A stretch of 64,000 nt of DNA, from NCBI GenBank assembly GCA_039566865.1, contig CM076952.1:13474501-13538500 (forward strand), given 5' to 3'. The translations under genes were made by a program, and so were the position numbers. Below, in pieces: positions 27,144 to 55,372 of this stretch. The notes under the pieces were generated by a model. It was not told the origin of the DNA, did no database searches, and saw only the letters and a list, made by a program, of their open reading frames with translations. The first letter of the stretch is position 1; each line of letters opens with the position of its first letter. The DNA comes from Aurelia coerulea. Its lineage: Eukaryota; Cnidaria; Scyphozoa; Semaeostomeae; Ulmaridae.

Positions 27144-28955
27144 CACAGTGTGCCCAGGGTGGGAATAAATTAATTTTCGAGTTCTCGATTTTGAACCTTT
27201 AAGGGATATTTTTCAATTGCATATACCCTGTACTAAAAGGTGCAAAAGACCAGACTTCAAAATATCCATCCGTTCCAGAGATACAGCACTTCAAAGTTGC
27301 AAGTTTCACAAAACTTAACTGAACGAATTCTTCGAGCAACTTTTCGTCTCAAATAGTATGCATCAAACATTTAATCATTGATTCACTTCCCCTAAAGTTA
27401 GAGCGATTGCAATAGGCTCATTCAAAAGCTGGGGAAATAAGCTTTCTAACTATCATCAATAGAATTTGATATTGGCAATGAAATGATTTCAATTTTGGAA
27501 GCAAACTTGTGACATAAAGAGTTTTTATTTCCCTTGTCGCCGTCTGTAACATCTTGTTACGTTTTATAGATTTCAAAAGATGCGGGTCATTGCGGGGATA
27601 TGCCGTTGCTTCCTTGTTATTGCATGCACTTCGAGGGAGTAGAAAATGCTAATTTCGCTTAAGGGGGGATAAGGACAAAGGGTGGGGAATGGTTTCAAGA
27701 CGGTACTTTCGGAGTCAAAATTACAAAAGTTCTTGCTCTCATATGTTGTTTATGTTGCACTACCTGTAGGAAAATATTTCGTTTAATACGATGATGCTTT
27801 CCTCAATATAATACCAGCCTTAGCTCATCCCAAACTTAAATTTGAAAAAGGAGGTTGATGGGCAGGGGGTCAAAGGAGCGGAAGGGGGGGTAAAGTGCGC
27901 TTTTTTTCAAAAATTGAATAATAAGAGCTTATCACCATATTATGAATTTCGATATTGCATTCTTCCATCAACAGTATTGCATATAATAAACACTGTATGC
28001 ATTTTAGGGGAAACCATTCACATGTACATTGATGCTGTCATCTCTTCAGTCTCAAAATTGTGGTGCACGTTTTTTTGCGTCATCTCCTACTTTTCCACAC
28101 ACTAAACGACATGGACATGGTCGCTTTGAGGCAATATAGGGATTTGACACGATAAGCACACGCCGGAATATGCCATGAATGTTCTTTTTTACTGAAGTTT
28201 GCCCTGCCCGTGCACATTGCCCACTTTGAAATGACCTCACATGTTTGTTCCAGCTTTCTAATTGATTCTAACTCCACTTCGCAATTGATTTTGCCATCCA
28301 AGAAAGCTATTTTCTCCTGCATATTTTGCAACTAATATTAAATTTTCAAATTCACTAATTATATTAAAAGAAAGGTGGAAGAAATATGGTAATTATTTGC
28401 AGTAAACAAATAAAACCTCACTTTTTTGTCAAAAATAACTCAGTTCTTGCTAGTAAACAACTCGAATTCATACAAACCAGTTCACAAGTTTTTCTTTATT
28501 CCTTGAGATTTATATTGAAATGGTTATAGTGAAACACCCTAGTCTTAGAAAACTTTACGTAATAAAGAATACATTTTTGAAAAATAAAGAAATCTAGTGC
28601 AGAAAGGTGGACATGAAACCACTACATATTCCCATGGGAATATTGGGTCCCAGACCTCGTAAATAGTAGTTATTTCATTCAAGCTCGTTGTCTGTACCAT
28701 TGCTGATTCCTGATGCGCTCTTGAAACCTTCTCTGAAAATACCAGCAGTAAATTCAATACAGTGCTATTTTGTCAAAATCGCCCAAATAAGGAAATTTGC
28801 CCCAGCACCCCCCTATTTCGGAAAATTGCAAGATATCCTTCATGTTATGTCCTCCTTTAGAAAACCTTTCTAACGAGCCCTCAACCATATTTTTATCAGT
28901 TTTCTTTCTTGCGCTATGAATTTATTCTCGAAATCAGAGATCTGGGCACACTGTG
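27144..28955. mobile_element. Transib-like element A, non-autonomous, RSS-like ends
   Basis: Ends are CACAGTGTGCCCAG (27144) and its exact complement (ending 28955). Flanks are AGGTG on both sides (27139-27143, 28956-28960), a 5-bp duplication. A GAATAAATT 9-mer starts 12 bp after the left heptamer (27163-27171) and 21 bp inside the right heptamer (28919-28927, inverted). Transib elements, relatives of RAG1/2, make 5-bp TSDs and have ends like recombination signal heptamers. The 1.8-kb interior has no recognisable transposase, so mobilisation would need a partner. Confidence 0.8.
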
Positions 28956-28960
28956 AGGTG

Positions 28961-29835
28961 GGGAGGGGGCTAAGATCTTAATCCTCCAAGTTTTTCAAGA
29001 AACAAAACAGAAGAAACAGAAGAAACAAACTTTTTCAGGATCCTGCTAGGGTTTTATGACCTCGTAAAACTTTTAGGCATTGGTTGCTCTGTTTTTCCTC
29101 CTTAACGATTGAAGCTGGTCTGCCAGGTTTTACACGCCACTTCGAAGTTCGTTATCTTCTAAAAAAATCTGTTTCTCGTACCGTTTCTTGGCCCTAAGAA
29201 TTTTCACTGGATGAACTGTGTTTTGGTAACATTCTCTGTGCAATTTTTAAGATGGCAATTTTTTAAGATGACAAAATCATGGTCACAGTAGCTTGCTCGC
29301 TCCGTGACAGCATGTAAAAATTTGTCAAACGAATCAGGGTCTGGAGATCTGGGAGATACTTCCCGTCTAGCATCTCCTACTTAATTCAAAACCAAGTTTT
29401 CTTTTTTACCATTTAGAATGCAAAGCTAGTAGCTCTCGCAAAGCTCTCGCCTCGCAGTCTCTTACTGCGTTAATTTTTCGAGACCCTGCCCTATTTCGAT
29501 TTTTTAGGGTCACTAGATCCATAAATGTTCGTGCGATTGCTTTAAATCACTTTCCATTTATAAAAACAGTATGAACACATTCGCCTGGAAAAAGTCTTGC
29601 TGTCATCCTCAAAAGAAAAGAAATGAAAGGAAAAAGCTAATGAAATGGAAAGTCAGTGCAAAGAAATATACATGCTGTAAACAAGGCTGATTGAAAGCCG
29701 CCGGTGTATAAGGTGTTTGGAGCTATAAACAATATTTTCAGTATATACTGAACATAAAAAAAAAGAATTGGATGATAAAAACTGTTTGCTGTGTCATAAT
29801 TGAACAAAGAAGGATCTAAAAATAGCATCAATCAA
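28961..29835. other. No gene recognised
   Basis: AT-rich, short frames only, no clear repeat structure seen. Confidence 0.45.
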
Positions 29836-30430
29836 TCAATAGTCATGTGATTAGTTGCTAGGCAACCAAAAACAATGCGAATTTTGACAAAATCGAGCTA
29901 TTTGCAAAAAAGGGCCCATTTCTAAGAAATAGCTGGATAAAATCGGCCAAACACCATCCAAATGCTTGCTTGATACCATCGATTTGTAGTTTCATATGGT
30001 TTCATACGGATATTTTTGGTTTCTAATTAATCAACTAATTAAATAATGAAAATTTGATTCCATGCAAAATTGTTTGCTCAATAATTATGAATAAAAAACA
30101 ATAAGTTCGCATATCATTTGTGAAATCAAGTACCTTAATCGATATTTGAAGTCATTTCATAAGTTTTGCGTGCAAAAATTACTAATTCATAAGGAATCTG
30201 ACGTTATAAAGATTGATGACGTCATAGAAATAATAACTGCTGATGTCAGCAAATATAAATAAATTATATATCAAATGAAAGTACTCATCGAATCGAATGG
30301 TATATATATATTGCTGAGATTTAGTTACAAAGAAAGAAATTAGAGCTATTTTAAAGAATTTCTTTGTGACCACTCTCCAAATATGGGCATGTGGTGGTCA
30401 CGTGGTCAAACAATGAGATCCTCAAATGGA
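29836..30430. repeat. Diverged relative of the TTAA MITE at 35254
   Basis: It shares TGACGTCAT words, CTGATGTCAGCAAATAT and CCAAATATGGGCAT followed by a CACGTG stretch with 35.4-36.0 kb and, inverted, with 45.6-46.3 kb. Ends are not found, so it is probably an internal or decayed copy. Confidence 0.5.
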
Positions 30431-30859
30431 ACAGCAACCATGAAACCCAAAGCAAATAGGTGGTTCACTAAAATTCAGCTGGGTTTGTAAATATGAAAAT
30501 TAAGTTCACCTTTTGAAGAACTGGAAGTGTGGGCCAAAGACTTTCCACGATCACCCAGTTCAATGTAAATAGTAACCTTGTTTTCAAGTAACATTTTGAA
30601 TTCGATGGGCTGTTCTTCAAGTACAAGTTAGTTCTTTAGTTGGAAGGCAAGTTCATTCTGGACAGAATTCAGGGATGCTGTTTGAAATAGTGGAATATCT
30701 TATAATCCTATTTGCAGGAAATTTCGGCTAGATTTCGCAGGAAATTCCGATTTTTGAATTTTGCTGCCAGGAAGAAAAAACTTTTTTCCAGCCCTGTATA
30801 AGGACTACATTATCTTCATTCTTAATAGACAAAAGAGACATTTGCAAAGAGTTGATGTC

Positions 30860-31240
30860 ATGACTCTGCAGCAACCGCAGATAATGGCACAAAAACTAGA
30901 AAAAATACCCTTAAACGTGGTCAGAAAATTGGCACCAACGTTTTACTCTTTCTCAGCATGCTGAAGAAGGTAGAAAAGCATGTTGCCACAAATTTACATC
31001 AACAAATTATAGGGCTCTGCACTATGAGACACCAGCAGTGAATGCTGTGAAATTCTACTTTGAAAGATCAGAAAAAGGGTTCAGAGGGAGACCTCGAGAA
31101 ACTATCGTAACAACATCAATCAGAGACATCACCAGAGTCAGATCAATGAAAAGAGATTTTCCAATACCAACTATGAAGAAAGAGGAGACTTTGAACAGAA
31201 AAGATCAGCAGCACGGGACTGCAAAGATTGGCAAAGGACC
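30860..31240 (+). pseudogene. C-terminal fragment of the second RT family
   Basis: In-frame pieces LQQPQIMAQKLEKIPLNVV, then YETPAVNAVKFYFERSEKGF and GRPRETIVTTSIRDI. The GRPR-T motif near the end matches the RT fragment at 48.3 kb (GRPPTTWI). Stops break it. It ends close to the MITE at 31322. Confidence 0.5.
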
Positions 31241-31321
31241 TCAGAAATAGTTTGCAGAGCAGCAGAAGCAGAAACTACAAGAAATTTTCATGCCGTAACT
31301 GCGTGACTACAATTATATATA

Positions 31322-32117
31322 CCGGGTGCACCAAAATAAACCATGCACTTTTCGCAGGCCACGACACATGGTACACCGGATCAATTTTGAACATTTATGA
31401 CTCAATCTTAGCAGAGAGCAAGAACTAGATTCTGGTATTTTTTGCAATTTTTTATTGTTTTTAATTTTCAGAGAAATAAGAGAGTTTCTTAAGATTATCG
31501 TTTTGGTTAACATTGAAAACGATCAAAAAACATCGATCAAGTCTTTTGAAGAATTGACATTAACGGACAAAGAGAAAACTTTTTTGTGGTGATTTGGGAT
31601 TTAGACATCGATTAATTGTAAACTGCTGCACGAGCACTGGCTCTATCTTGGGAAAAATGTACAAATATTTTCAATGATATTAAGATATTCTCAATGGTAT
31701 AAAGAAATGTCTGTCCTTCTGTAATTTCATTGAATTTATGCTTTGGTGCAGGTTTCGTTCCTATGTCAAGGGGGGTATAAAAAGATAAACAGGGAACCGT
31801 TATGGTGCCAAGCAAGCATGCAGATTTGTTGAATCTATGACATGCAGAAAGGCTTGGCCCGGCACTTTATTGCAACTACTATAGAATTTCGTTTACAATA
31901 ATTAATTTCTACATCCCCAAATCACCCCGAAAACGTTTTCTTTGTCCACTCATGTCGAGTCTTTAGAAACTTTGATCGATGTGCTTCTATCTCTAAAAGA
32001 TGAAAACAAAACATTTGCATAAAATCCTAGAATCTGACTGTTCAAGATTAAGTCCAGCCTTCGATTTATCGTGGCCTGCCAAAAGTGCATAGTTACAGTT
32101 TATTTTGGCGCACCCGG
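31322..32117. mobile_element. 796-bp mariner-like MITE
   Basis: Ends CCGGGTGCACCAAAATAAAC and the complement of CCGGGTGCGCCAAAATAAAC. TATA lies on both sides (31318-31321, 32118-32121), compatible with a TA target. The second motif GGCCWCGA also recurs inverted. Related copies at 36180-36296 (right end only) and 56554-57131. Confidence 0.8.
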
Positions 32118-32121
32118 TATA

Positions 32122-33262
32122 CTCAAGATGATTAACTCGAATAAGATTTTATTCCAACTTTATGTGCTTTAACCAAGTGCATAGATATTTTAATCAAAGA
32201 AAACAAAATGTGTGTGTGACATTCGTTTTGGATGTTCTAACAAATCCTATTCATTGAATCTTAAAGAAATAAATTTCTGAAATACCAAGAAAATAATGAA
32301 GACCATCCTGTTAATGACATTTTTAGTGAGTGGGATTGAATGAACTATGGCAGAAAATTAATAAATTACCTTCTCTGTTTTCTCTAATGGATTCATTGCT
32401 GAAATGTAACATAAAACATTTTTAAGATTTTCTTGAAAGAGATAAACACTTTGGGAGAGGGCATTGCACAGTTATCCAGAAAAAAATGAAAGAAATACAA
32501 AGACATGAAGTTTAACATTTGAATTTGCCTTATCATCAAGCACATTTGGAGGTTCATGAACCAAAAAGAATTTGTAATTGGACAACGGATAGCTCAGAAA
32601 ATTTCAAAGTAATATGTTCCTCTGCTCAGAAATATCCAAAAGCTTTTCCTCTCTCCTTTCCAAATGTCATCTTATTTCAATCCTCTAGTCATGAACTTTC
32701 AAATGATTTCAGTGTTGATTGAAAATATAAATATATTGGTACATTTCCATGCAATTCATAACAGTGGACACTTTTAGCATTTCATAGCTTCAAGGGCTAT
32801 TTCAAAAATTCAAGTTAAAACATCGAAATTGGGGCAAAATTGATTAACCAAAAAATCCCAAAACCAAAGCCGTTGCTGCAAGTTTCTACCAAATGGTTTG
32901 TTCAAAGGTGAACCCAAAAAGAATTATGGTCATTAATATTTTGCTTGTACAACAGAGTTTAATGAAGTGTTTCAGTGCTTTCTGCAATAAAAATACATCT
33001 TTTTCAGTAATCTATTTCAAGTGGGCTGAAAGGATTTCTAGGCATTTAAAGCTAATTTAGGCCCACAATACTTTCTACATCCAGGCATGGGACCCCTTGT
33101 TCAACGTCCCTTCTGCAGGATGGCTAAGTGAGTTGCGAGGTCAGGCATCCGAGAGGTCACCCATCGGGTGTTTGAGGAAATCAGACCAACGAGTGCAGAG
33201 AAAATGCAGTTTGAACTTTACAAAAATTGTTAGCAGTGCCTATTTTAAGCCGAATTTACAAG
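32122..33262. other. No gene recognised
   Basis: AT-rich sequence with short frames. No domain or repeat structure supported. Confidence 0.45.
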
Positions 33263-33270
33263 ACCACAAT

Positions 33271-33662
33271 CAGCGGCGTAGCCAGGGTAAATTTATTGGA
33301 GGGTAATAGATTGAGGGGGTCTGGGGGTGAAGCCCCCAGGAAAATTTTCGGGGCCACACCCTTTACTTTGGCTTAGAATACATCTCCCAATATTATGCTT
33401 GCCTTAAGCGACAACGAAACCTTGATCGTTTTGCAACAGTTGTCCTATGAATCAGAGCACGAGGAAAATTTTTGAAGAAAGATCCTTTACTTTGGCTTAG
33501 AATGCATCTCCCAATATCATGCTTGCCAGTGCTAAAATGAAAGATTGGCATTTCTCGGAAAATTCTTACCCAACCTATACCCAGCTATTTTCTCTTCGGT
33601 TTTAGAGGAATCTTGAGGACCATCCTTCCACCAATTGCCCCCCCCCCATGGCCATGCCACTG
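33271..33662. mobile_element. 392-bp hAT MITE
   Basis: The 8-bp TSD ACCACAAT is exact (33263-33270, 33663-33670). TIR CAGCGGCGTAGCCAGGG pairs with the complement of CAGTGGCATGGCCATGGG. The interior has two copies of CCTTTACTTTGGCTTAGAAT (33360, 33482). Relatives lie at 37185-37540 and about 60640-60760. Confidence 0.9.
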
Positions 33663-33670
33663 ACCACAAT

Positions 33671-34955
33671 CTGAAGAAACGGAGGTTTCTTCAAAAAAGA
33701 AATGTTGAGACCACCTTCTTGTGATTAGTAGGAAATGCCCTTTCCACGTTCCTTATTGATTGGGAAATATTCTTTTCAATTTTTTTTTTTTCATTTTCAA
33801 AGTTTTTCAGTTGGTTTCAATGTCTACTGAATCCCTTATGCACGCTTTGCTAAGACAGATACACGTAGACTACCAGAAAAATGTCTCGATAAGCAAATTG
33901 CCTCGTCTGGAATTGAACAATATTAGTGTACACGCCAATTATGGAAATGAATGTATATAAGGTAAATGCGAACAAGTCTTTCATACATAGTGTACATAGC
34001 AAACGTTTTACGTTTTACGTTTTACATAGCCAAATTAGATTACAATATTGTATTCAAGGAAAGGAAATATACATGTGGAAAGTTCAAAGGGTTTTTGAGA
34101 CCACACATTCTAAATTTCAAGACCACATTTCACATCTTCAAGACGACAAAGTGTGGACAAGACCACACTAAAATAGGCACTGATTGTTAGGCATTGTTTC
34201 GTTTACATTTCCGGTGTATCACTGTTTAAAGTGGCCTAAACCAAACATTTCAAGTTTTCATTTATCTAGTTTTAGTCATGCGATTTCAATGAAATTTGTT
34301 TTGAATTAAACTTCAATGTCTTAGAAATTGAACAACGTACATTAAAATCGAAAACTTTCGCAAAAAAAACTTTCTGACGCTTTTTTAAGAATTTCGGACA
34401 AAAAACTTTTGGATAAAAAAATGTTTGCATTAAAACTATAGTTGTAAGTTTTATGTTATTTAAAATAGATGCATCAGAAGCATTCTAAAAGCAGTCTCCA
34501 AGATTGAAGACGAAAAAAAGAGAAATGTAGAAACTCATTTTGGAAGCAGGATCACCGATGACAGTACATCATTTTTAACGGTAGCATGGGGAGATTTTTT
34601 CTATTTTCAAAGAATTTAAAACTTTCGAACAATTGCACTTTCAGACAAAAAATTGTCCGAAAGTTTGATCGTCCGAGAAATTGGTCACATGAGACGCATT
34701 GTGCAACAGCAGGTCCTTTTACTTTGTAAGGGGTGATATTGATCTTTATGGGTCACATGATACATAGCAAAGCAGCTCTATTTTTCGTTCGCTCAGCACC
34801 TTGTGGCTTGAAATTGATTTTGTGGCTTGAAAATTGATTTGTCAGAAATCCTGACAGAACATTACAAGAATTTTGTCGTGATTGGTACCAGAAAATTCAC
34901 AATAAAAATATACCCGTTCCTAGAATTTTCTGATCAGAAACTATCCTCAAATTGG
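33671..34955. other. No gene recognised
   Basis: AT-rich. A short ACGTTTT triplication lies near 34004. No supported gene. Confidence 0.45.
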
Positions 34956-34959
34956 GAAG

Positions 34960-35245
34960 TCACTAATTCAAGATTCGAGATTGAAAATTTGGAACTCAAG
35001 ATTCGCACTAATTGAAGATCCGGAGTTCACGATTCACACTAATTTTTAGCCAGTGAATAGGCTAAAAGATACAAAAATTAAAGAAAAATTCTTACCCTGT
35101 GGACAGGCTTACCCTGTGAAGAAGGCTTGTTTTTTATTCCATTTCCTTATTTTTCAACCTGTCGACAGGTTAATTAATTTTAGTTCCGGAATTCAAGATT
35201 CGCACTAACTGTAGATCTGGAATTCGAGATTCACAATAAATCGGG
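34960..35245. repeat. Degenerate ~32-bp minisatellite (GGAATTCAAGATTCRCACTAA type)
   Basis: Units such as GAATTCAAGATTCGCACTAA, GAGTTCACGATTCACACTAA and GAATTCGAGATTCACAATAA recur with about 30-33 bp spacing at each end of this stretch. A non-repeat segment lies between. The same units occur in reverse at 56455-56552 and 57132-57200. Confidence 0.6.
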
Positions 35246-35253
35246 CGTTTTAA

Positions 35254-36124: not shown

Positions 36125-36179
36125 TTAAGAAACTCGCTCATAGCTCCGTAAATAGAAGACTAAGAAATATACAAAAAAT

Positions 36180-36296
36180 ACTGGCATCTAATTGAGGATC
36201 TGTAAAGATTAACTCATCATAAATCTTCACAATCGGTATACGATTTGTCCTGGCCTGTCAAAAGTGCATAGTTTATTTTGGCGCACCCGGTATAAA
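36180..36296. mobile_element. Right-end fragment of the 31322-type MITE
   Basis: CCTGGCCTGTCAAAAGTGCA through GTTTATTTTGGCGCACCCGG, followed by TATA, matches the right end of the element at 31322-32117. The left part is missing. Confidence 0.65.
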
Positions 36297-36315
36297 ACCA
36301 TATTTACAAAAACCT

Positions 36316-36350
36316 TAGCCTGCGTGCAGACTCAACTTGCACGCAGGCTA
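36316..36350. repeat. Perfect 13-bp hairpin
   Basis: TAGCCTGCGTGCA (36316-36328) and its exact complement (36338-36350) with a 9-nt loop. Probably a tiny foldback remnant. Confidence 0.5.
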
Positions 36351-39035: not shown

Positions 39036-40190
39036 GTGGGGTATAAGTTCGAAAGACTTGATCGTAATAGAAATGGAGGTGGCGTAGCCTTTTATATCAG
39101 GGATACTTTTAAGTATGATGTTCGCAAAGATATTCCTTCATCATCGTTGGAGCTAATTTGTGCGGAAATCACTCCACCCCAATCTAGCGATTTCTGCATA
39201 CTCTCGTAGTACAGACCACCGGGCAGCCCAGTAGACACTTTCGATAAAATGGAGCAAGTTCTACGATTCCTCGAATCAGAGGGAAAGGAGATTATCTTAT
39301 TGGGAGATACAAATTGCGACCTCCTCAGTTCTGAAGACTCGTCTGACTCTTCAGAGCCTCAGGTTCCAAATCATGTAAAACGTATTAATGATGTCTATCA
39401 ATCTTTTAGACTTGAGCAAGTAATTAAAGAACCCACACGAGAAACAATAGAGACTGCCACCCTCCTCGATCACGTTGCCGTGAGCAATATCTATAATATT
39501 GTTGAGTCTGGTGTATATAGGGTAGCTCTTAGTGATCACTACCTTGTGTACGCTGTCAGAAAATTCCGCGGTGGGGTTAAAAAACAGCATAAAGTAATAA
39601 AAACGCGGCAAATGAAAAATTTTGATAAGGAGCTCTTTTTGTCAGATGTTGCCTCTGTTGATTGGCAGTCACTGCTTCATTGTTCCCCTGATATCAATGT
39701 TATCGTGGAGGAATGGACCAGTATGTTTGCGATGATTATACAGAAGCACGCCCCTATTCTTGAAAGACGCGTCTCCGAGCGATATAGCCCGTGGCTTACC
39801 TCTGAGTTGAAACGTACGTGTAGATCGAGAGATAAACTAAAGACTGCAGCCGTCAAGAAAAAATCAGAGGCTCTCATGGCAGCCTACAAACAACTTAGAA
39901 ACAAAGTGAATAATACCTGTAAAACACTAAAAAGAGAATATTATACTGACAAGATTAAAGCATCCGAAGGAAACTTGAAAGAAGCATGGGCAACTATTAA
40001 CAAGGTAGTTAATAAACGATCTAAATCGACAATGATTAGCTGCTTGTCTGATGGTGACGAGCGCATCGCAAATCCCCAAGACATAGCGAACAAGATGAAT
40101 AATTTCTTTTGCAATGTTGGTGATCAACTAAGTCAGGAAATCCCAAATACCAAGAACTCCCTCCTAGAAGGAGAAGTTACTGTAAATCCT
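39036..40190 (+). pseudogene. LINE ORF2 endonuclease and linker, interrupted
   Basis: Begins within the endonuclease (YKFERLDRNRNGGGVAFYI). An in-frame TAG at 39207-39209 precedes YRPPGSPVDTF. It continues with GDTNCDLL, LSDHYLVYAV and the linker VSERYSPWLTSEL. It stops being LINE sequence at VTVNP (40190), where the Mutator-like element begins. With the stop and the insertion it cannot make a whole ORF2. Confidence 0.85.
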
Positions 40191-43100
40191 AGCATAGCCG
40201 TCAAATCTTTTCTTTTGTCCAAAGCTCCCGTGGGGTTCTGACTCACGCTCTGATCAGATCGCATTTTCTCCTATGATTGACCAATCAGGTGCCGTCGTTG
40301 TGTGTACTTCCGCGTTTCGCAGCAAAACTTAGGCCATTTTGAGCCGTTTTGACCACTCTCCGGAAAAAATCATTGCACGATCGGATAAATCGAATTTTGT
40401 CAAAATTTTAATCGGAGAAGATTCTCCATGCTTTGGACCATAAGTGTTTTCGATATGGCTTTGCGATCACTAAAAATAGCAGAATTGTGGCATTTTTAAG
40501 CTCAATGCAGTCATTCATCGGTTACAGACTCTATGGTTAGCAAAAAGAAGAGTAGAAAACTGAAAACCTGAAGAAGAACTAGTGCATACACATACCTCAG
40601 ATGATTTAATAACAAACATCCACTTTTTCTGCTGTGATCTACAGCGAGTTTCACGAGCAAATAACACAGTCAACAAAAATGGGCGCGAGAACTTGAATGA
40701 TCAGCTACATGCAATCGTCGAGTGAGAACAACATCCGATTCCAATGAGCAGAAATATCTGGAAATATGAATAAATCAACGGTGAATAACGAATACATGAA
40801 CTTGCCATGCTGAAGATTACGGGAGTAGCTGTACGTCCACTCTGGCCAAGAAAGAACAATTTCGTGATGTCTTTTTCAATAGTGCCACCATTCCTTTATC
40901 CAACTGCGGCTATCGTTGCCAGATGGAAACCGGCAATAACATTACCAAAACGATGTACGAATTGATCGGTCACATCCCATCTTTTATTGCAAGAAAAATG
41001 TCTATCGTCTTATGGTCTAGCAGCTTCATGAAACAAACTGAAATGCTAGGTTTAATGTTCTTACGAATACGAATAACAAAAAGAAATGTACATCTTATTT
41101 TCATAACGAGTAAAATAGATTGATCTTTTCAACATTTTGAAATATTATTTATAGAAACTCCTCATGTCAATTTCACATTTTAGGCGGATATCATAAAAAA
41201 TATTTTATATTTTGAAAGTCCTTCATTAGAAAATCCCCCCCCCCCCCCCCGTCACAGTCAAGCAGCACAGTGGCATCAATGCAAAGTTGGGCATTTTACA
41301 AACTCATTGCCCATTCATGGAAGAACAACCCTTTTTTTGGTAAGATTCTACAACTTTCATCCAAAATAGAAAGCTCCTCAAAGTTCTCATTTTCTGAGTA
41401 CAAAATGTTTCGTAAGAGTTTCTTAAAAGTTCTCAAATTTCTATCGGTGGTGTAGGATCTCTGGGATCTCCTGTGCCTTCGATAAAAATTGCGCGGCAAA
41501 TTTTGAAATCATGCCACAGTGTAGATCACATACGACATCTCATGTAAGAAGTTACCAAACGAAAAGTGAAATTAATTTGTTTCAGTTTCCAAAAAAGTTA
41601 TATTTACTTTAGGCTTGATTCTAATAGAAAGGTTTCTTCTAAGGTTCCCAAATTTTCAAAATTTCAACTGACAGTTTGTCGACGTTCATTCAGAACCACA
41701 TTTTGAACCAATGAATTGTTAAAAAACGAAATAATAACATAAAATATTACTTTTTAGCAATAGTTGAGTTGGTAATGCAATTTCATACAAAACATTTTTT
41801 GCAACTGATAACTTACTTTGAAAAAGTTCCTTAAATTTGAAATGACCTTTCATCGCTTCTAATAGAGTTTCTTAATTTATCGAAGAGGCAGCAACGGTTT
41901 CCTTCAAGCAGTTTCCTGCAGAAAAATTGTATGCAGTTTTCATTGATAGAGGCCCGCTATCAAAGGAAACTTTTTAAGAAACTGAACTCTCAGGTCACCT
42001 AGAATATGAAATCTTGGATACTGGAACAAATTAATTTCACTTTTCATTTGGTAATTTCTTACATGAGACTTCGTACATGATCTACACTGTGGCATGATTT
42101 CTTAATTTGCCGCACAATTTTATCGAAGGCACAGGAGATCCCAGAGATCTTACACCACCGATAGAAATTTGAGGGAACTTTTAAGAAACTTTTACGAAAC
42201 ATTTTGTGCTCAGAAAATGAGAATTTTGAGGAGCTTTCTTTATTGGATCAAAGTTGCAGGGTCTTACAAAAAGAGGGTTGTTCTTCCATGAATGGGCAAT
42301 GAGTTTGCAAACTGCCCAACTTTGCTTTGATGCTACTGTGTTGCTTGACTGTGAAGGGGTGATTTTCTAACGAAGGACTTCTAAAAGATAAAATATTTTT
42401 ATGATGTCCGCCCAAAATGTGAAATTGACATGAGGAGTTTCTATAAATAATATTTCAAATGTCGAAAAGATCAATCTATTTTACTCGTTATGAAAATAAG
42501 ATGTACATTTCTTCTTGTTATTCGTATTCGTAAGAACACTAAACCTAGCATTTCAGTTTGTTTCATGAAGCTGCTAGACCATAAGACGATAGACATTTTT
42601 CTTGCAATAAAAGATGGGATGTGACCGATCAATTCGTACATCGTTTTGGTAATGTTATTGCCGGTTTCCATCTGGCAACGATAGCCGCAGTTGGATAAAG
42701 GAATGGTGGCACTATCGAAAAAGACATCACGAAATTGTTCTTTCTTGGCCAGAGTGGACGTACAGCTACTCCCGTAATCTTCAGCATGGCAAGTTCATGT
42801 ATTCGTTATTCACCGTTGATTTATTCATATTTCCAGATATTTCTGCTCATTGGAATCGGATGTTGTTCTCACTCGACGATAGCATGTAGCTGATCATTCA
42901 AGTTCTCGCGCCCATTTTTGTTGACTGTGTTATTTGCTCGTGAAACTCGCTGTAGATCACAGCAGAAAAAGTGGATGTTTGTTATTAAATCATCTGAGGT
43001 ATGTGTATGCACTAGTTCTTCTTCAGGTTTTCAGTTTTCTACTCTTCTTTTTGCTAACCATAGAGTCTGTAACCGATGAATGACTGCATTGAGCTTAAAA

Positions 43101-43403
43101 ATGCCACAATTCTGCTATTTTTAGTGATCGCAAAGCCATACCGAAAACACTTATGGTCCAAAGCATGGAGAATCTTCTCCGATTAAAATTTTGACAAAAT
43201 TCGATTTATCCGATCGTGCAATGATTTTTTCCGGAGAGTGGTCAAAACGGCTGAAAATGGCCTAAGTTTTGCTGCGAAACGCGGAAGTAGACACAACGAC
43301 GGCACCTGATTGGTCAATCATAGGAGAAAATGCGATCTGATCAGAGCGTGAGTCAGAACCCCACGGGAGCTTTGGACAAAAGAAAAGATTTGACGGCTAT
43401 GCT
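40191..43403. mobile_element. Mutator-like foldback element, ~1.39-kb inverted arms
   Basis: 9-bp TSD GTAAATCCT exact (40182-40190, 43404-43412). The left arm starts AGCATAGCCGTCAAATC. The two arms (about 40191-41590 and 42010-43403) are near-identical inverted copies; a 66-codon frame is present in both (40923 plus, 42471 minus) with two residue differences. The unpaired centre is about 420 bp. A run of 17 C's near 41237 is replaced by AAGGGG-type sequence in the other arm. Long TIRs and 9-bp TSDs fit Mutator-like elements. No transposase is seen. Confidence 0.9.
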
Positions 43404-44977
43404 GTAAATCCTGAAAAAGTGTCGTTTTCATTTTCTCCAATATCGCCGCAACAACTTGTCAAAGCAATGAGTAAGTTTAAGACCTCTAAAAGTTTTGGTC
43501 TCGACCTCATTTCCAGCTATTTTCTCAAAATTGGGATGCCGATCCTTGCCAGTCCTCTGAGCCAATTGTTCAATCTATCTATGTCTCAGGGGTTATTTCC
43601 CGACAGTTGGAAAATTGCACGGGTTGCACCTATTTATAAAGCTGGTCCAGCTGATGATCGGTCAAATTATCGACCCATCTCTGTTTTACCTGTTGTTTCT
43701 CGTCTATTCGAAAAACTTATATTTGACCAGATGTATTCTTTCCTTAACAATAACAAGCTTCTTTACTCGAAGCAGTCAGGCTTTAGAAGGTTGCACTCAG
43801 TTTTAACTTGCTTACTAAAGTGCACGAATGACTGGTATCTGAACATAGACAAAGGCAAATTCACATCAGTAACATTCATAGATCTAAAGAAGGCCTTTGA
43901 CACAGTTAATCATGAGATTCTTCTCAAGAAGCTTTCCCTGTATGGAATAAAAGATAAGGAATTACGCTGGTTTCATTCATACCTCTCGAACAGAAAACAA
44001 TGTTGTAAGGTAAATGGGCAGATCTCTGACTTGAGGACGTTACATGTGGCGTACCACAAGGTTCATGCTTAGGGCCTCTCCTCTTTTTACTCTACATCAA
44101 CGACCTACACCTATCACTAAATTACTCTGAGGTGAATATGTATGCAGATGACACTAGCATTTCGTCTTCATCAGATTCTATCCCCACCATAAACGAAAGT
44201 GTCAATTCTGACCTTCTTTGTTTAAAAACCTGGTTGGAATCAAATAAGTTATCTCTCAATGTCGCCAAAACACAAAATCTCCTCATAGGAGGTAGAAAGA
44301 AGTTGAAAGACATTGAAAACTCTGAAACACAAAAAGTGCAAATTGTTATTGGTGAAGAACCAGTTTCGGAGATTAAGCACACAAAATACCTGGGGATCGA
44401 AGTTGACCAATTTCTAAATTGGGATGATCATATTTCCGCTATAATTAAAAAGATCTCAAAAGGAATCGGAATGTTACGTTATGCGAAAAGATGTCTCCCT
44501 CTAACTACGATTCAGTCAATGTACAGAAGTCTTATTGAGCCATATTTCCGATCCTGTTGTTCCGTGTGGGGAGTCTGTAGTACCACTGCCTTAAACAAAC
44601 TACAGAAACTACAAAACCGTGCCGTGATGATAGCTACAAACAGCCCTTACGATGCGTCCTCACAACCACTTCTGAAGGAACTAGAATGGCAAACGGTCAG
44701 AGAACTTATTGACATGGAAACAGCCAGGATGGTGTACAGGTCAATTAATGAGGAAGCTCCCAATTACCTTGCAACTTTGTTCGAGAGGTTGTCGGATAAT
44801 AGTATTAGAGTGCTTCGAAATACAAATACAGACCTGAAGCTGCCTTTCCTAAAAACGTCCAGTGGTCAACGGTGCTTTGCTTATAGAGGAGCACGATTAT
44901 GGAATAGCCTTAACGCTGATGTCAAGACAGCGTCGACCTTAAATCGATTCAAAGCTGCATATAAAACCAGCCAGTAA
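43404..44977 (+). pseudogene. LINE reverse transcriptase, one frameshift
   Basis: The RT frame runs through NYRPISVLPVVSRLFEKL, motif A FIDLKKAFDTVNHEIL and SNRKQCCKVNG. A single missing G near 44038-44042 shifts the frame just before GVPQGSCLGPLLF. The second frame carries YADDTS, SLNVAKTQ, KYLGIEVDQF, CFAYRGARLWNSL and a stop at 44975-44977. Apart from the frameshift the domain is complete, so decay is recent or limited. Confidence 0.9.
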
Positions 44978-45075
44978 TCTTTTCGGTTGAACTCCTTATT
45001 TACATTCCAGTTTTATTTTCATCTTTATCGTTACTTGTAAATTTTGATTAGATATCTTTATTTTGTTATTATTTT

Positions 45076-47128: not shown

Positions 47129-47478
47129 CATTTTCTCCTGCATTGCCAAAGGTTTGACTTGATGCGCACTGATCCCTCACTGAAACTTTCGGACATCCCA
47201 GGATTAGATATAACAACGATTAATGCAAAACACTATGTGAGCTGCTCCATTATGGAAACCCATAACTTATTGTAATTGAGAACATAATCAGTCGATTTGT
47301 GATTTGCAATTGTTTTATTTTGTGTAGTGTTTGTACATACTTAAATATTATTGTTGAATTGTAAGCACCACTCGCAATGGGAGCTAGTTAACCATGTGTT
47401 CTATCCCGTTGCGAATGGTAAACAGTACTGTAAATATGTATTTTTGTTAGTTATTTTATGGTGATATAAAAAAAGAAG
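47129..47478 (+). mobile_element. 350-bp 5'-truncated retroelement insertion
   Basis: Flanked by an 11-bp duplication AAAAATCTTGA (47118-47128, 47479-47489). It ends in an A-rich tail (GATATAAAAAAAGAAG) on the plus strand. It contains CGCAATGGGAG/ATCCCGTTGCG, a possible 3' stem. Parent family unknown. Confidence 0.7.
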
Positions 47479-47737
47479 AAAAATCTTGAAAATTAACTGC
47501 TCTCTCTTTTTGTGAGGTCAGCAATTGCTAATGAAATGTTAGAATCTGAACTTTTTCCCAATAAACTGAAAAAGGCTGATGTCCCCCCTATCTGCAAAAA
47601 TGTGGGAGAAGACACAATTAAGAAAAGATTTCGTCCAATAAGTGTATTGTCAGCATTATCGAAGGTTTTTGACCGATTAATGGCTAAGCGGATGCTGTAC
47701 TTCATCCAACCAAATCTTGTCAATCTCCTATGTGGAT

Positions 47738-48518
47738 TTCTGCATACCAACCTAGAAGAAGCACCACGGAGCAAATGATTGTCGTGAAAACTTTAGCAGA
47801 AAACGCAATAGTGTCAAGCGATTATAAGGTATATCTCCTGCTATTTGACATGTCCAAGGCATTCGACACCGTCGAACGAAAGAAACTCTTTGAAGAACAA
47901 GAAGATATATTAGATGATGATGAACTACATCTCTTAAGCAAAATAATAAACCAACCAGAACTAAAAGTAAAGGTATGCAATATAGTTGGTGAAAGTTTTA
48001 TAACAAACACAGGAATTATGCAAGGGGATTGCCTAAGTGCAGTGCTCTTCGTACTATACTTAGGAAAATGTTTACGCCTGCCAACCAAAACGAAAATGAA
48101 AGGTTTTTGCATCAAACCCAAATACGCTGATGACTTGAATTTCATAGACACATCAAAGATACAAATCGATGAAATAGAAACTAAGATACCAGTCCAGCTA
48201 AGAAAGTATAATCTAGAAGTAAATACATCAAAAAGAGAGCGATATGAAATACCAAAATTGATTCTAAAAAATGATACTCGAGCAAAAATAGCCCTCAATG
48301 AAAGCCTGAAACAGACAAAACAGAAGGTTGGAAGACCGCCCACTACATGGATAAAACTGACAGAGAAAGACTTATCCTCAATAAAAATCAAAATAAACAT
48401 TGAGTCAAACCCTGCTGAAAAAACATTATAAGTTTTAGAAGAGCTAACAGCAAACAGAAGGGACTGTCAAAAATTGTTAAAGACAAAATGGTGGAAATCT
48501 GCTGTCAATGTATTTTAG
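47738..48518 (+). mobile_element. 781-bp insertion of the second RT family
   Basis: Flanked by TATGTGGAT (47729-47737, 48519-48527). It encodes AYQPRRSTTEQMIVVKTLAE, motif A LLLFDMSKAFDTV, motif B TGIMQGDCLSAVLF and PKYADDLNFI, then an internal deletion, then GRPPTTWI and the C-terminus. The insertion falls within the host LINE's own RT frame at the corresponding point, so it mimics a chimeric RT. Confidence 0.8.
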
Positions 48519-48690
48519 TATGTGGATATAGGGAGAGTTTAAGCATTCAACATGCACTGTTTCGTGTTATAGAGATGTTCCACAGGACAATCGATCAGTC
48601 CGGCATTGTAGGAGTAGCAAAAATGGCTGCCTATGGCTTTAGTAACAAGAGTTTAGAACTCCTGTATAGCTACCTTTCTTTCAAACAGAG

Positions 48691-48888
48691 AACGGTAAAA
48701 TGAAGGTAAAGTTGCGGTTTTTAGCGCCAAGCGCTGGGATCGCAGAAGTAGAATAGGCCTAGTCGAGTCCGCGACCCATTGTCATGACGTTGAGGTGATG
48801 GGGCTCTACCTGGGATCGAATCCGGTCCACCTGACTGTTCTGGCTGGAAGGTCAGAGAATTATACCACTGCGCCACAACACCTTCAAG
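48691..48888 (-). mobile_element. tRNA-derived SINE
   Basis: Reverse complement starts CTTGAAGGTGTTGTGGCGCA, with an A-box-like TGGCGCAGTGGT and a B-box-like GGATTCGATCC about 45 bp later, as in tRNA-headed SINEs. AACAGAG flanks both sides (48684-48690, 48889-48895). It interrupts the RT frame of the host LINE. Confidence 0.7.
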
Positions 48889-50109
48889 AACAGAGGGTTA
48901 AGATAAGCAGTACTTTTAGTGACTAGTGCATAGTATCTGGTGTTCCTCAAGACTCAGTCTTTGGGTCCTTATTGCTCAACACATTCATCAATGAGTTTGT
49001 GTTCGCTATACAGAGCTCCCAGGTATGCCATTTTGTTGATGATAATACGGTATTTGCATGTGGCAAATACATTAAGGAAGTAATTGCGTGTCTTGAGTTT
49101 GATATTGAAAATGCAATCTCCTGGTTTAAGGACAACGACATGGTAGCAAATCCGGACAAATTTCAAATGATGTTTCTTGGTCTCAAAGAGAACAGAAGAT
49201 TATGTCTTAACATAAATGGTAACATTATAGCCAATACTGACACGGTAAAGCTCTTAGGACTTACAATTGATTCAAAGTTGAACTTTCGGGATTACGTAAC
49301 ACACATTTGTAAAAAGATGAATCAGAAAAAGGAGCTTTTTCTAGGATTGCGAGATATCTTGATGTAGACAAGGCCAAAATACTCTACCATGCATTTATTC
49401 TTTCAAACTTCAACTACCGCCCGTTAATTTGGATGTTTTTTGGGAAGACGGCAAACAACACAATCAACCGTTTGCATAAACGTGCACTGAGAGCTCTGTA
49501 AAGGGACTATGCTGCAATGTTTGAAGATCTCTTGAGAAGGTCCAGTGAGCTAACAATCCACTGCAAAAATTTGCAAAGGACCATTGCTTGAAATATATAA
49601 ATACATAAATGCCGCTAGCCCCTCCTTCACGTTTGAGTTCTTCAAACCAAAGCATATTCAATATGACCTACGAACAAATAACCTCCTGCAGCTCCCTAAA
49701 ACCAATACGGTAGTTTATGGAAACGATGAATTATATTTAAAGGAAGTATTTTGTCGAACACGGTATCAGACACGATAAAATTGGTCAAAACACAAAGCAA
49801 TTCAAAAATATGATTAAGGGCTGGAATGGAGATACTTGCCGTTGCAACATCTGAAGATGATTTGCACACAGATCATGTATACATTTACGTTTAAATTTAC
49901 GTTTATATTATATATCTTTACTTTGTGGTGTAGATAGTTGGTATTTATTAGTTTTCTTTAATTTAAAACTATTGCTTACACCAACTGCAAATAAATTAAT
50001 TATGGAACTTTTAAGAAACTCGTAAGAAACTCTGAGTACCTGCACAAAAATACAAGGCTAAACTTGGACTTGTACAGGCCAAGTTTTAGCCTTCTAGCGG
50101 GGATAATAA

Positions 50110-53100
50110 AATAATAATAATTACTTTGTTTAAGGTTGGCGTAGTGCATAGCACTAGGCTAATGCCAACCATTATCAATAAATATCAAAATGTGACCTAA
50201 ATGTAACCTAAATTTACAATAAAATCATTACATAATGTACAGTTGCATGAAATATTCCAAAACTCAATTTCTCTTTTAAAATACTCTACAGATCGGGACT
50301 CTTTTATATGCAATGGCAAATCTCGCCAGAGATTTTGCCCCAGAAAACTCACAGTTTCTATCCCATAGGCTGTAGTTCTAGGTTTGCGTGCATAGATGTT
50401 GCTCGTAACCCTTAAGTTGTAAAGTATTTCCCTCTCTGAGAAAATTTCTTTCATAAAAAAAGGATTCAGATTCATCCTTGTTCGGTAAATTTCAGTGACA
50501 AGCAACTGTAGATTTCGTTGATGAATTGAGACTGAATGGTCTGTAATTAACAGTTCTTCAAAACTTGAGGTCCGATCATGATACGCTATCCGTAATGCTC
50601 TTTCGTGAATGGAGTAAATTTTTGCATTAACTCGTCTATCATGAAACGTCCATATCAATGGACAGTAGCTGAATTGTGACATTGCGAAAGCTTTCACGAC
50701 TTTCTTAATTGTTTCTTCAGGCATATACGTAGAGGCCCTTGCAAGAGCATGTAGCTTCTGGCTTGCTTTTGCACACACCATGTTCACGCGTTGCTTGAAA
50801 TTTAGCTTTTGGTCAATTACAACGCCCAACAATTTTTCTTCTTTACTCTCTTTAATGACAGAGGAACCAACTCTTATTGATATTTCAGTCTCTTTCTCGC
50901 CAAACACAGGAAGATGGCATTTCTCCTCGTTTAGTTTCATGCAATTTTGTTCAAACCAATTGCTCAGTTCAACAGTATCATTTTCTAGCTTTTAAAATAA
51001 CCTCCCGTAACTCTTGATGAGAACAATCGATTGTCGTATCGTCTGCATAATTACAGATTTCAGTTTCATTCAACAAAAGGAAAATATGTTGATAAATATG
51101 TTAAAGAGGAGAGGCCCCAGGACTGATCCTTGAGGGACACCTAATTTCATTTCTTTCCAAGAGCTGAATGAACCATTTATTTTGACTCATTGCCTTCTAC
51201 CTGCTAGATAACTGTACACAATCTGTATTGCATTTTTACTAAAGCCATATGCGTGCAATTTAGCAAGCAAGAGTTCATGGTTGAGACAGTCGAAAGCCTT
51301 GGATAAGTCCATAAGGACTGCTCCAACAAAACCTCTGTTGTCTAAGGTTTTCTTACAAGTCTCTACCAATTTCAGCAAAGCATGCTGAGTATTGTAACCA
51401 TGTCGATACGCGCAAAGGCTAGGCGAGAGAAATTTGTTAACAAAAAGTAGCATTTGATTTGTCAAAAGTCTCTCAAAAACTTTGGAGACTGAAAGTAATA
51501 CTGTTATTGGTCTATGGTTCTTTTTGTGGAATGAGTCACTATTCTTGAAAAGTGCACTAACATCACCGTCTTTCAGTTCATCGGGAAAAGAATTTTCGTT
51601 CACACTGTTATTGAAGAGGTCCATCCAGCAGGTGGGAGGCAACTATGTCAATATTATCTTTAATTATCTTTGCTGGAATACTGCTAATACAGTAAAAACC
51701 CCCACATAAGAACCTTCATCTGTTAAGAACCTACAGCCTGAAATAATATATTTTGTAACCAACAAATAAGAACCATTTCAGGCTGATATCTAAACTGGGT
51801 TCTTAATAAAGGGTCTTATTCATTCATTGGGAAATAAATGCAACATTTCTGCCAATCAACCTCTTTCGTGAACTCCAAAACATTTCCTACAGAACTGTAA
51901 TAGGCAGGGCATGCATGGGGTAAAATGGGTAAGGTTGGGTTGAAATGGATAGGGTCAAAGAGTGCAAATAAAATTGGCTAAGATTTAGATTCACATATTT
52001 TCCTATATTAAGAACCTACACCCTGATTACTAGATGTGCCTCATTGCATAAGAACCTAAACAGGCTGAGTTCAAAATCTTAGGTTCTTATGTGCGGGTTT
52101 TTACTGTAGGTGAGGCCTTCTTAATATTGGGATTATCAACTTGCTCAAGAACTTCAACAACTGACGCCCTTCTGAAACTGAAGGCCTCGACATCTTCAAG
52201 GTGGCTTTTTATCAAAAGTACACTAGGGTGAGATCGGTATTTTTCGATGGCAGCAGTAACTGGATCCGAGATTCCATCAACAGGCAATATATTTTCATTG
52301 CTGTCTGTAATACTCAAGGATTTTGTAACATTACTGAAATATTCATTCAATCTATTAGCAACTGCTCGGTCTTCCGAAACGATCTCATCATTTTCCATCA
52401 AAACGATTGTTGAAGAGGTCTTGACTTTTTCATTGAATATAGGTTTTACTGCTTTCCAGAACTTCCTATTATCGGTCAAGTCCTTGATGTCAAGATCCTT
52501 ATAGTAATCCTTTTTAACTTGTCGCAATATCTTAACACATCTATTCCTTTGCTTTTCAATGGCTTTCAAATTGTCAAAGTGCGATTTTTGCAATATATAT
52601 TCCTGAGTCTGGTTCTGCTCATGATTGCCTTTCTAAGTGCTTTCGTCATAAATGGGCCATCATTCAATCGAACAGATTTCTTCTTTATTGGAGCATGATT
52701 ATCCAGCACACTTCTAACTATAGCATTGAAAACTTCAAATTTCTCACAGCAAGAACTATTTTTATCTAATTGTTCTTTAAGATCCTCTTTAAATCTCAAT
52801 GGATCAAATTTGCTGTGGTCACGATAAGTAATTATCCTGGGGCCTCTCTTAATGAAATAACTTTTAACTACAGTCACAATCATGGAGTGAAAGTCAGACA
52901 GTCCAGTTTCAACAGTTCTTGTGCCTTTAAAGCATTTCACATCATTAGTTAGTATCAAATCAATACAACGTGCATTACCTGACTTAAAACAAGTAGGAAC
53001 CTTAACTAAATTACCTAACCCATACAAACTCATGAAATTAGAAATATTATCGTTATGATGACCTCATCATCACCTTGTACTAACCTTTGAAGAAAATTAC

Positions 53101-53139
53101 AAAGCTATCAGTAAGATTCCAAGTTACAACCAACCAGTC
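50110..53139 (-). pseudogene. Jockey/CR1-group LINE, minus strand, split by a MITE
   Basis: Minus-strand order: endonuclease tail (DWLVVTWNLTD near 53.12 kb; MSLYGLGNLVKVPTCFKSGN; VETGLSDFHSMIVTV; LDNHAPIKKKSVRLNDGPFM at 52.66-52.75 kb), linker with CVKILRQVKKDYYKDLD (52.5 kb), MITE at 51690-52106, RT with NHRPITVLLSVSKVFERLL, motif A LMDLSKAFDCLNHELL (51.3 kb), [18 protein letters not shown] (51.1 kb), YADDTT (51.04 kb) and the C-terminal frame 50197-50940. Frameshifts lie near 52600 and 51000-51190. The 3' end has hairpin GGTTGGC/GCCAACC (50132-50169) and an ATTATT tail. The upstream end is cut at 53139 by Transib-like element B. Confidence 0.85.
51690..52106. mobile_element. 417-bp pogo/mariner-like MITE
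   Basis: TIRs CAGTAAAAACCC followed by [C/G]CACATAAGAACCT, about 26 bp, flanked by TA on both sides (51688-51689, 52107-52108). The interior has further TAAGAACCTA words. It interrupts the LINE between NIKKAS and IPAKIIKDN. Confidence 0.9.
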
Positions 53140-55372
53140 CACAGTGATCCAGAGGATGGAATAAATAGGAAAAATCGAAGTTTGAAAAACTTGCGGCATG
53201 TAATATCCTCCATGAAAATGGGGTGTCAGGGGTCAACACAAAGCAAACATTTTCGAAATCGGACCAATTGTTCCGTCACAATGATTTTTTTAAGTTTGGG
53301 AAAATGACATGTTGTTGTTTATCATAGCACTTCCGGCAAAATTTATTGTTTTGGCTTAACTTTAAACTTTCATAGCTCCGCTCATGATTGTCCGATTTTT
53401 ACAAACTTAGTTTCATTTGAAAGATGATCATCTACTTGTACATCACATGTAACTTGTTTTCAACAAAAGCAAACTAAAGCATGGGTAACCGGACACACAT
53501 TATGCTTTGTAGTTTTTGAGAATTTCGTGACAAAATAGCCACTCAATAGTAAAAACAAAAAATTCAAGTGATATGAAGTGTTAGCTATAAACATATAAAA
53601 ATACTACAAGGTCTTGGGAACATTTCTGCCAAAGGGTTCGTTCCAGATCGTTTTAGTTTTTTTCAACAATTTTTTGAAAACTGTCACAAAAAGTCCATAT
53701 CTGCAAGCTGAGTTAGAAAAAGAATCATCGTGTGATATCTGGCTCTCTTTTCCGTTTACCAATGTTCTCTGCATACTCGGAACCATCTAAAAATAAGAAA
53801 CGATGACCTACTGTTTCCATGAAATAGGTATCAATTCCGTAAAATTCTATTTTATTTGTTAGCGTTCGTTGCATAAAAGACCACACTTGAAAGCATAATT
53901 TGTATGACATTTAAGCCTTCGATTGACACTAAAAGAGGTTAATTGCATTAGTTCTGTGCAAGTAATACACCTTTTAATTGTGTAGCGGAAACCTTCAGAT
54001 TTAACCGTTGAGTTCAAGTTATGAATAGAAGGATTTTTTAGCATTGTCTATGGCCAGCTTAATGTATGTATTGGTTTTTAACAGAATACAGACAAAGAAC
54101 ACTTGTCTAACATGATACATTTTTGTATGTTGAAACACTTAAGCATTGCTACTATAATGTGAAGCTGCATCTTTACCTACACTTTACCCATCCACCCATC
54201 CGATGCTCGTTCACAGATGAGAGCATGCTTGAAATGATTTATATTGATGAAGGCCCTGTTGTAGTTTGGTCTGGAAGCAGTTTAGAAGAATAGAAAAAGG
54301 AACAGAAGAAACCTTGGAAGTGGACCTGGTTGCAGGGTTAGGCAAATTTCAATATAAGCAAAGACTCCAGCAAAGACTCCGATTCTGATATCAGCTTCTT
54401 TGTAGCTAAGGCCAAGCAAAATTTCTTAAAAAAGCACTGTCATTATGTCGAAGTGCACACAACAGATACCAAAGAAAGTAAGAAATGTAATTATCGCTTT
54501 GTAATATCGATGAACAAAATAAAACTTGTTTCATTAGTGAATGCTTGCTTTTTGACACAATTTCATACATTTTTAGCTGTGGCAGATTGCATATATTGTT
54601 AGTTGTTCAGAGGGGTAAATGCTTAACAATAAGGAAGCAAGGCTTGAAAATTCATACAATTATTTGGAAACAATATACTGTTGTTTTGCATTACTTCAAA
54701 AATTTAATTGCCCTGATTGTACAAATGGTTGCTTCTATAAATGTGGAAAAAATTGTGAAACTGAGGGATTCCACATTAATTCTTTTAAGCTTACCTTGCA
54801 GATCAGGACATCTGGTAGCATTTTTCAAAAAATTGTTGAAAAAAAACTAAAACGATCTGGAAATAACCCTTTGGCAGAAATGTTCCCAAGACCTTATAGT
54901 ATTTTTATATGTTTATAGCTAACACTTCATATCACTTGAATTTTTTGTTTTTACTATTGAGTGACTATTTTGTCACGAAATTCTCAAAAACTACAAAGCA
55001 TAATGTGTGTCCGGTTACCCATTGTTTAGTTTGCTTTTGTTGAAAATAAGTTACATGTGACGTACAAGTAGATGATCATCTTTCAAATGAAACTAAGTTT
55101 GTAAAAATCGGACAATCATGAGCGGAGCTATGAAAGTTTAAAGTTAAGCTAAAACAATAAATTTTGCCGGAAGTGCTATGATAAATAACAACATGTCATT
55201 TCCCCAAAGTTCAAAAAATCATTGTGACGGAACCATTGGTCCAATTTCGAAAATTTTTGCTTTGTGTTGATCCCTGACACCATCTTTTCATCGAGGATAA
55301 TAAATGTTGCAACTTTTTGAAACTTCGTTTTTTCCAATTTATTCCATAATTTCTCTGATCTGGATCACTGTG
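53140..55372. mobile_element. Transib-like element B, ~580-bp inverted arms, RSS-like ends
   Basis: Ends are CACAGTGATCCAGA (53140) and its exact complement (ending 55372). The 5-bp TSD is CAGTC (53135-53139, 55373-55377). GAATAAATA starts 12 bp after the left heptamer (53159-53167); GAATAAATT is 21 bp inside the right heptamer (55336-55344, inverted). The inverted arms extend to about 53720 and 54795. Short frames in the centre (54545-54918; cysteine-rich CPDCTNGCFYKCGKNC) are not a recognisable transposase. It inserted into the endonuclease part of a LINE. Confidence 0.85.

Follow-up and report, generated by a model that had tools for sequence, protein, structure and literature searches.

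The closest described systems are Transib transposons, RAG-like elements and the recombination signal sequences (RSS) of V(D)J recombination. Transib transposons are related to the enzyme by which antibody genes are assembled. Ends with a 12/23 spacer pair have been described for Drosophila Transib5 and four Anopheles families, Transib2/N1-N3 (PMC8355894, in extract), and an extract of PMC8289069 describes most Transib families with symmetric ends. All Subgroup I Transibs have asymmetric ends, both kinds occur in Subgroup II, and complete RAG-like elements are found in corals (PMC9435367). The part of PMC7204232 consulted here reports RAG1L-RAG2L pairs in two corals and a moon jellyfish, and within that part no complete cnidarian element with ends is described. 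Unequal 27/31 end pairs of ProtoRAG were more active than equal ones, according to an extract of PMC8289069. Here we analyzed a 64,000-nucleotide stretch of the Aurelia coerulea genome (C10:13474501-13538500 of a 574-Mb assembly; hereafter the window), which contains two non-coding elements with RSS-like ends. Judged from sequence, both belong to Transib families. The elements of this genome that we read have 12/21 or 12/22 ends, 5-bp target-site duplications (TSDs), and homogenized arms with unhomogenized tips. We consider it likely that such non-coding Transib elements are moved in trans by a transposase efficient only on ends with 12- plus 21- (or 22-) bp spacers, and that loss of the asymmetry stops their spread.

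Element 1 (family E; 1,812 bp) occupies positions 27144 to 28955 of the window, with its 12-end on the left and its 21-end on the right, and is flanked by the TSD AGGTG at 27139-27143 and 28956-28960 (both + strand). The 12-end (27144-27171, + strand) consists of the heptamer CACAGTG (27144-27150), the 12-bp spacer TGCCCAGGGTGG (27151-27162) and the 9-mer GAATAAATT (27163-27171). The 21-end (28919-28955, - strand) has the same heptamer (28949-28955), a 21-bp spacer (28928-28948) and the same 9-mer GAATAAATT (28919-28927). The termini form a perfect 14-bp repeat without long arms, and the copies at loci L032 and L033 are 93-94% identical to element 1. Element 2 (family A; 2,233 bp) lies at 53140-55372 in the same orientation, with the TSD CAGTC at 53135-53139 and 55373-55377 (both + strand). 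Its 12-end (53140-53167, + strand) comprises CACAGTG (53140-53146), the spacer ATCCAGAGGATG (12 bp, 53147-53158) and the 9-mer GAATAAATA (53159-53167), and its 21-end (55336-55372, - strand) comprises CACAGTG (55366-55372), the spacer ATCCAGATCAGAGAAATTATG (21 bp, 55345-55365) and the 9-mer GAATAAATT (55336-55344). The heptamers and exact TSDs given for both elements in a preliminary description of this DNA were thus recovered base for base, and so were its distances of 12 bp on the left and 21 bp on the right between heptamer and 9-mer. That description lacked the inverted arms of element 2, which are ~590 bp long: the left arm (53140-53725, + strand) is 93% identical to the right arm (54779-55372, - strand), and in the first 500 bp the sole gap is the 9-bp extra block in the tip. 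A copy of element 2 at L026 has 94.5% identity.

Neither element contains an open reading frame of at least 120 amino acids. When the window was scanned for CAC...GTG pairs that are separated by 60-8000 bp, carry no more than one heptamer mismatch and are flanked by an exact 5-bp TSD (46 left and 39 right candidates), elements 1 and 2 were the only ones returned. CACAGTG occurs 15 times in the window against 5.1 expected, a count reached in 0 of 100 shuffles, and GAATAAATW alone occurs nine times against 4.3 expected (3 of 100 shuffles reach 9). The window also holds a decayed, family-D-like Transib arm with the damaged heptamer CACAGTT (32467-32999), for which no right end was recognized in the stretch up to 34620.

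A complete coding element was found at C9:19026890-19031752. It is 4,863 bp long, has the TSD TGTTG exactly on both sides, ends in CACAGTG-21-GAAAAAAAG upstream and CACAGTG-12-GAAAAAAAG downstream, and holds an open frame of 649 amino acids. In the Protein Data Bank (PDB) this frame best matches 6pqn, an entry annotated as a putative DNA-mediated transposase (E 6.6e-27), which we take to be HzTransib. Further PDB matches were the ProtoRAG RAG1L (6b40; E 8.4e-12) and vertebrate RAG1 (3.7e-5), and the lead of 6pqn over 6b40 places the frame nearer Transib than RAG1L. Against the Pfam RAG1 family it scored 22.7 bits, just below the 25-bit cut-off. On alignment, D202, D314, E576 and H549/H554 appear to correspond to the Transib acidic triad and paired histidines, and these are presumably the catalytic residues. 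Residues 30-32 are GRP, a motif named for the nonamer-binding domain (PMC9435367). The CTT1 tail Cx2Cx3GHx4C of Transib Subgroup I is absent from the C9 frame, although a later exon is possible, and no second frame of at least 100 amino acids lies wholly inside the element, no search with a RAG2 profile having been made. A search with the 649-residue protein gave 76 related pieces (68 of 999 candidates scored), among them several frames of more than 600 amino acids, with 56-69% identity. The preliminary description had suggested looking for a transposase whose own ends share the 9-mer of the two elements; a complete 12/21 Transib element does exist, and its 9-mer is GAAAAAAAG instead.

Remnants of such a transposase connect the non-coding elements to this enzyme. 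Element 1 carries a degenerate C-terminal piece at 28121-28294 (- strand; 53% identity over 58 amino acids, E 1.4e-13, one internal stop), which includes a glutamate that aligns with RAG1 E962, in what we take to be the RAG1 numbering. Other remnants are present in family E relatives and in family C elements (best E 2.4e-47); weak ones were seen in family B (about 1e-3) and family A (0.004, in L026), and the match of element 2 itself was not significant (E 0.46). The assignment of element 2 to Transib follows from its relatives, its ends and the homology of its arms to those of family C (67-69% identity over 534-567 bp). A foreign superfamily (e.g. hAT or CACTA-like) with RSS-like ends by chance is scarcely conceivable: the transposase remnant inside element 1 refutes it for that element and the C9 element refutes it for the ends, while element 2 is tied to Transib through relatives and ends. 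An autonomous relative from another superfamily was looked for, and the coding relative is a Transib. The earlier attribution to a Transib/RAG-like family can accordingly be narrowed to Transib proper, and it does not extend to a RAG1L-RAG2L element. As separate observations, the remnants in families E and C (window 28121-28294; L023, L025 and L048) share the position of a stop codon, four residues before the glutamate aligned with E962, and a second remnant in L023 and L048 is without the shared stop.

Unequal ends were found in every complete element that was read. All 17, from seven families, have 12/21 ends, or 12/22 ends in family D; they are the two window elements, L021-L026, L029, L030, L032, L033, L040, L048, L050, and two on C9, namely a family F element (10809592-10811514) and the coding element. 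The 5-bp TSD is an exact repeat in 16 of the 17 and has one mismatch in L022. As regards the preference of Transibs for G+C-rich targets, the G+C content of the TSDs (13 of 17 tallied, a small sample) was 57%, compared with 38% for the window. The ends carry a CAC-initial RSS-like heptamer, damaged at one end of a single counted element, the family D element L040 (TSD CCCTG), in which CCCAGTG replaces the heptamer of the 12-end. L027, also of family D and with a damaged 12-end, has no TSD and was left uncounted. A partner search for the lone ends in L027, L028, L031 and L034-L040 gave no convincing partner. The 12/21 spacing of the preliminary description therefore holds in most families, family D being 12/22, and its 9-mer is not invariant: relatives carry GAAAAAAT, GAAGAAAT or GAAAAAAAG. 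The statement that the 9-mer differs from the vertebrate nonamer stands, since it is GAATAAAT-like or GAAAAAAAG and not ACAAAAACC. L048 (C2:25502000-25508400) shows two 21-type ends in the same direction, at 539 and 3234, 2.7 kb apart and before one 12-type end; both share the flank GGCCG, and only the inner 21/12 pair was counted.

A census of ends across the genome gave the same picture. The pattern CACAGTGN{5,30}GAATAAAT had 823 matches (399 + 424), compared with 16 (10 + 6) for its backwards-read control. Spacer lengths were tabulated for 100 listed ends of the 823, and 95 of these have 12 (39 ends), 21 (43 ends) or 22 bp (13 ends); the others have 20 (two), 5 (two) or 17 bp (one). Spacers of 13-20 bp account for 19 of the 823 ends (7 in the reversed control), and nine of these 19 represent one 13-bp-spacer variant of the 12-end. 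Among its places are C8:20752, C18:17010 and C20:118198, all three within ~120 kb of a contig start, and subtelomeric duplication, not transposition, may account for the spread of the variant. Inverted neighbor pairs among the 100 listed ends (cut-off of at most 10 kb; 2.2-4.1 kb apart) were 12/21 in 19 of 19 cases, for which the chance would be about 1e-6 if the listed ends were paired randomly, a figure that treats as independent same-family copies that are not. Eight elements (L021-L026, L048 and L050) are common to these 19 pairs and the 17 complete elements. Random spacing or symmetric ends were looked for in both sets and were found in none. Asymmetric pairs of ends, as described earlier, are thus seen in both sets; that a pairing rule is actively maintained is something we infer, against the rival of passive protection discussed below.

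The arms of these elements behave differently from their tips. The comparison of arm identities and the arm tree covered families A-D. Within one element, the arms of these families are 90-96% identical, with a mean of 94.8% (nine elements, first 500 bp beyond the spacer), whereas between families the mean identity is ~52% whichever ends are compared (120 comparisons); the tree groups arms by family and not by end type. Likeness within elements together with unlikeness between families indicates that arms are homogenized inside elements, up to about the 9-mer. In family F the arms are 91-94.5% identical and in the coding C9 element 98.9% identical over 1,156 bp, so that in six of the seven families arms are 90-99% identical within an element while the tips are still 12 versus 21/22. 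After a shared outer block of about CACAGTGATCCAGA, one end carries 9 extra bp (10 in family D). A tip gap of 6-11 bp near position 11-18 was seen in 9 of 11 aligned arm pairs and was the largest gap in seven of these nine, L024 and L030 having bigger gaps, of 22 and 26 bp, at other places in the arm; the alignments of L023 and L029 were unanchored at the tip and showed none. The earlier remark that the extra 9 bp on the right are diverged while the spacing is kept can be generalized, as the block has a mean identity of 0.52 between families and the long spacer is 21 or 22 bp.

These observations could also reflect a frozen accident with passive protection, in which a difference of 12/21 in the founder had no role and conversion or template switching simply spares the last ~30 bp. 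That stretch would be out of reach because beyond the 9-bp heterology there is only ~14 bp of homology, about CACAGTGATCCAGA, followed by unrelated flanking DNA. The conservation of length over sequence argues against this explanation. Spacer sequences are strongly diverged across families (mean identity 0.66-0.67), yet the short spacer is 12 bp in 7/7 families, and of ten families or lone ends nine have a long spacer of 21 bp and one has 22 bp. The indel rate of the arms predicts ~9.7 spacer-length indels, against one observed (P 0.0007), in a test that used 18 of 30 arm alignments (at least 80 bp), left out the groups with 13- and 20-bp spacers, and simplified matters with a star tree and loose gap costs. 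Distant Transib and RAG-like elements, moreover, also have asymmetric ends (PMC9435367), and ProtoRAG functionally prefers such ends, as an extract of PMC8289069 reports. We regard passive protection as rather improbable, though it deserves to be taken seriously, and the constancy of length as suggestive of maintained asymmetry, not decisive.

In the reading that we prefer, full-length elements of the same genome would supply the Transib transposases that move the non-coding elements in trans. The enzyme would cleave at CACAGTG, and its insertions would duplicate 5 bp of the target. At each end it would recognize a bipartite signal, made up of the heptamer and, where an RSS has its nonamer, the A-rich 9-mer, the latter probably contacted by the enzyme's nonamer-binding-like region. 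Synapsis would join one 12-bp-spacer end with one 21- or 22-bp-spacer end and would be efficient only in this combination, and because of this pairing need copies that had lost the asymmetry would not have spread. The 9-mer of the coding element is altered alike at both ends (GAAAAAAAG). This shared change may look like co-evolution with the enzyme, but simple homogenization of the arms running through the 9-mer also fits. A more far-reaching claim is that, in an early-branching animal, a Transib enzyme without a RAG2 partner in its element enforces a 12/21(22) rule on exact V(D)J-heptamer ends, with a co-evolving nonamer equivalent, and blocks equalization of the tips despite kilobase-scale homogenization of the arms. 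On this claim we lean slightly toward doubt and put it forward tentatively.

Several points weigh against this interpretation. It has been argued that invertebrate RAG-like transposases respond fairly little to asymmetry of the ends (PMC7204232, in the part consulted), and unequal signals are not preferred by vertebrate RAG1 when RAG2 is absent (PMC8355894, in extract). The tips may escape gene conversion through missing flanking homology. The end that faces the gene is not fixed, the 12-end being downstream in the C9 element and a 21-type end, with the heptamer CACAGTA, in a copy on C19 whose protein is 60% identical. The 13-bp variant in nine places means that 12 bp is not rigid. Finally, the test of spacer length weakens to P 0.006 when the 13- and 20-bp groups are added, and with a halved indel rate, as would suit passive protection, to 0.046 without these groups and 0.21 with them.

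A different mover must also be considered, since a RAG1 profile had two matches in the genome, both on C9 (E 2.4e-29 and 4.3e-26; L041, C9:2908979-2909785, and L042, C9:10807493-10807978). The best PDB match of both is the RAG1L structure 6b40, and a lone 21-end stands 2.6 kb from the first match, so that a RAG1L(-RAG2L) transposase now present as genomic fragments might have moved the elements in place of Transib. This lone end, however, can be aligned over 43-59 bp with tips from the element families; the coding product of the complete 12/21 element is a Transib, and no second frame of at least 100 amino acids lies wholly inside that element; and the remnants in the non-coding elements match the Transib frame, whereas at E 0.01 they gave no match with either RAG1L fragment. 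We therefore dropped RAG1L as the mobilizing enzyme and consider that role very improbable; the fragments are apparently separate from the Transib elements. One of them is directly followed by non-LTR retroelement frames and the other has a Cx2Cx3GHx4C tail. The fragment without a noted tail shares 94% identity, across 43% of its length, with a protein labeled Seg5179.3/GoldUCD, presumably from a jellyfish gene set. The RAG1L tail, used as a query, returned itself and ten weak matches, one of them the 649-residue frame on C9. It also led to a frame of 799 amino acids in L051 (C6:15754800-15760200; 1289-3685, + strand), which is weakly similar to the tail (32% over 103 amino acids) and has a CCHC-like knuckle. 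This frame, possibly a distant kind of transposase, was set aside: nothing below 0.08 in Pfam or below 0.28 in the PDB matched it, and its 5.4 kb contain no exact CACAGTG. A second distant Transib-like frame, in L053 (31% over 261 amino acids), was set aside as well, the best pair with an exact or near-exact TSD in 4 kb having ends that agree at only 3 of 14 positions.

Compared with the known systems, the present elements share with Transib (6pqn; Transib5, Transib2/N1-N3) the transposase, the 5-bp TSD, the CAC-initial heptamer and, as in some families, asymmetric bipartite ends. They differ in the exact CACAGTG, the long spacer of 21-22 bp instead of 23, the GAATAAAT-like 9-mer, and arms that are long and near-identical but have unequal tips. 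Asymmetric bipartite ends and a 5-bp TSD also occur in AanRAGL of Aureococcus and the Subgroup I Transibs, and the spacers of AanRAGL (4/13) differ by 9 bp, as do 12 and 21 (PMC9435367). AanRAGL carries RAG2L and other motifs, whereas the C9 frame is without the Cx2Cx3GHx4C tail. ProtoRAG resembles the present elements in its two-part ends with unequal spacers (27/31) and differs in its heptamer CACTATG, its distal element GCCATCTTG and its RAG1L-RAG2L pair (PMC8289069, in extract). The V(D)J 12RSS/23RSS, with the consensus quoted in the same extract, shares the heptamer CACAGTG, the short spacer of 12 bp and, at the nonamer position of the 12RSS, an A-rich 9-mer. The long spacer is 21-22 bp here and not 23, the 9-mer is not ACAAAAACC, and the process is transposition and not the joining of segments. 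Asymmetric ends of Transib and RAG-like elements are thus already published; in a limited literature search we came across no account of a 12/21 family that combines exact CACAGTG with homogenized arms, and on this limited basis that version appears to be new.

Much of the remaining window is filled by frames of non-LTR-retroelement type (14781-17738, 39210-44977, 47688-48431 and 50197-53063). Of these, 14781-17738 and 47688-48431 gave a reverse transcriptase match, and the other frames were judged by eye. Two tRNA-Ser genes or copies lie at 6104-6177 (cga) and 10428-10501 (tga).

The origin of the 12/23 rule is an open question. In this single genome, unequal ends persist in seven families, although in six of these the arms are otherwise nearly equalized, which makes the families a natural experiment on the need for asymmetry. 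The coding C9 element provides a concrete enzyme/substrate pair, in which the heptamer is the RSS consensus and the element has no second frame of RAG2 size. If the more far-reaching claim above is true, an RSS-like unequal pairing rule would not need RAG2.

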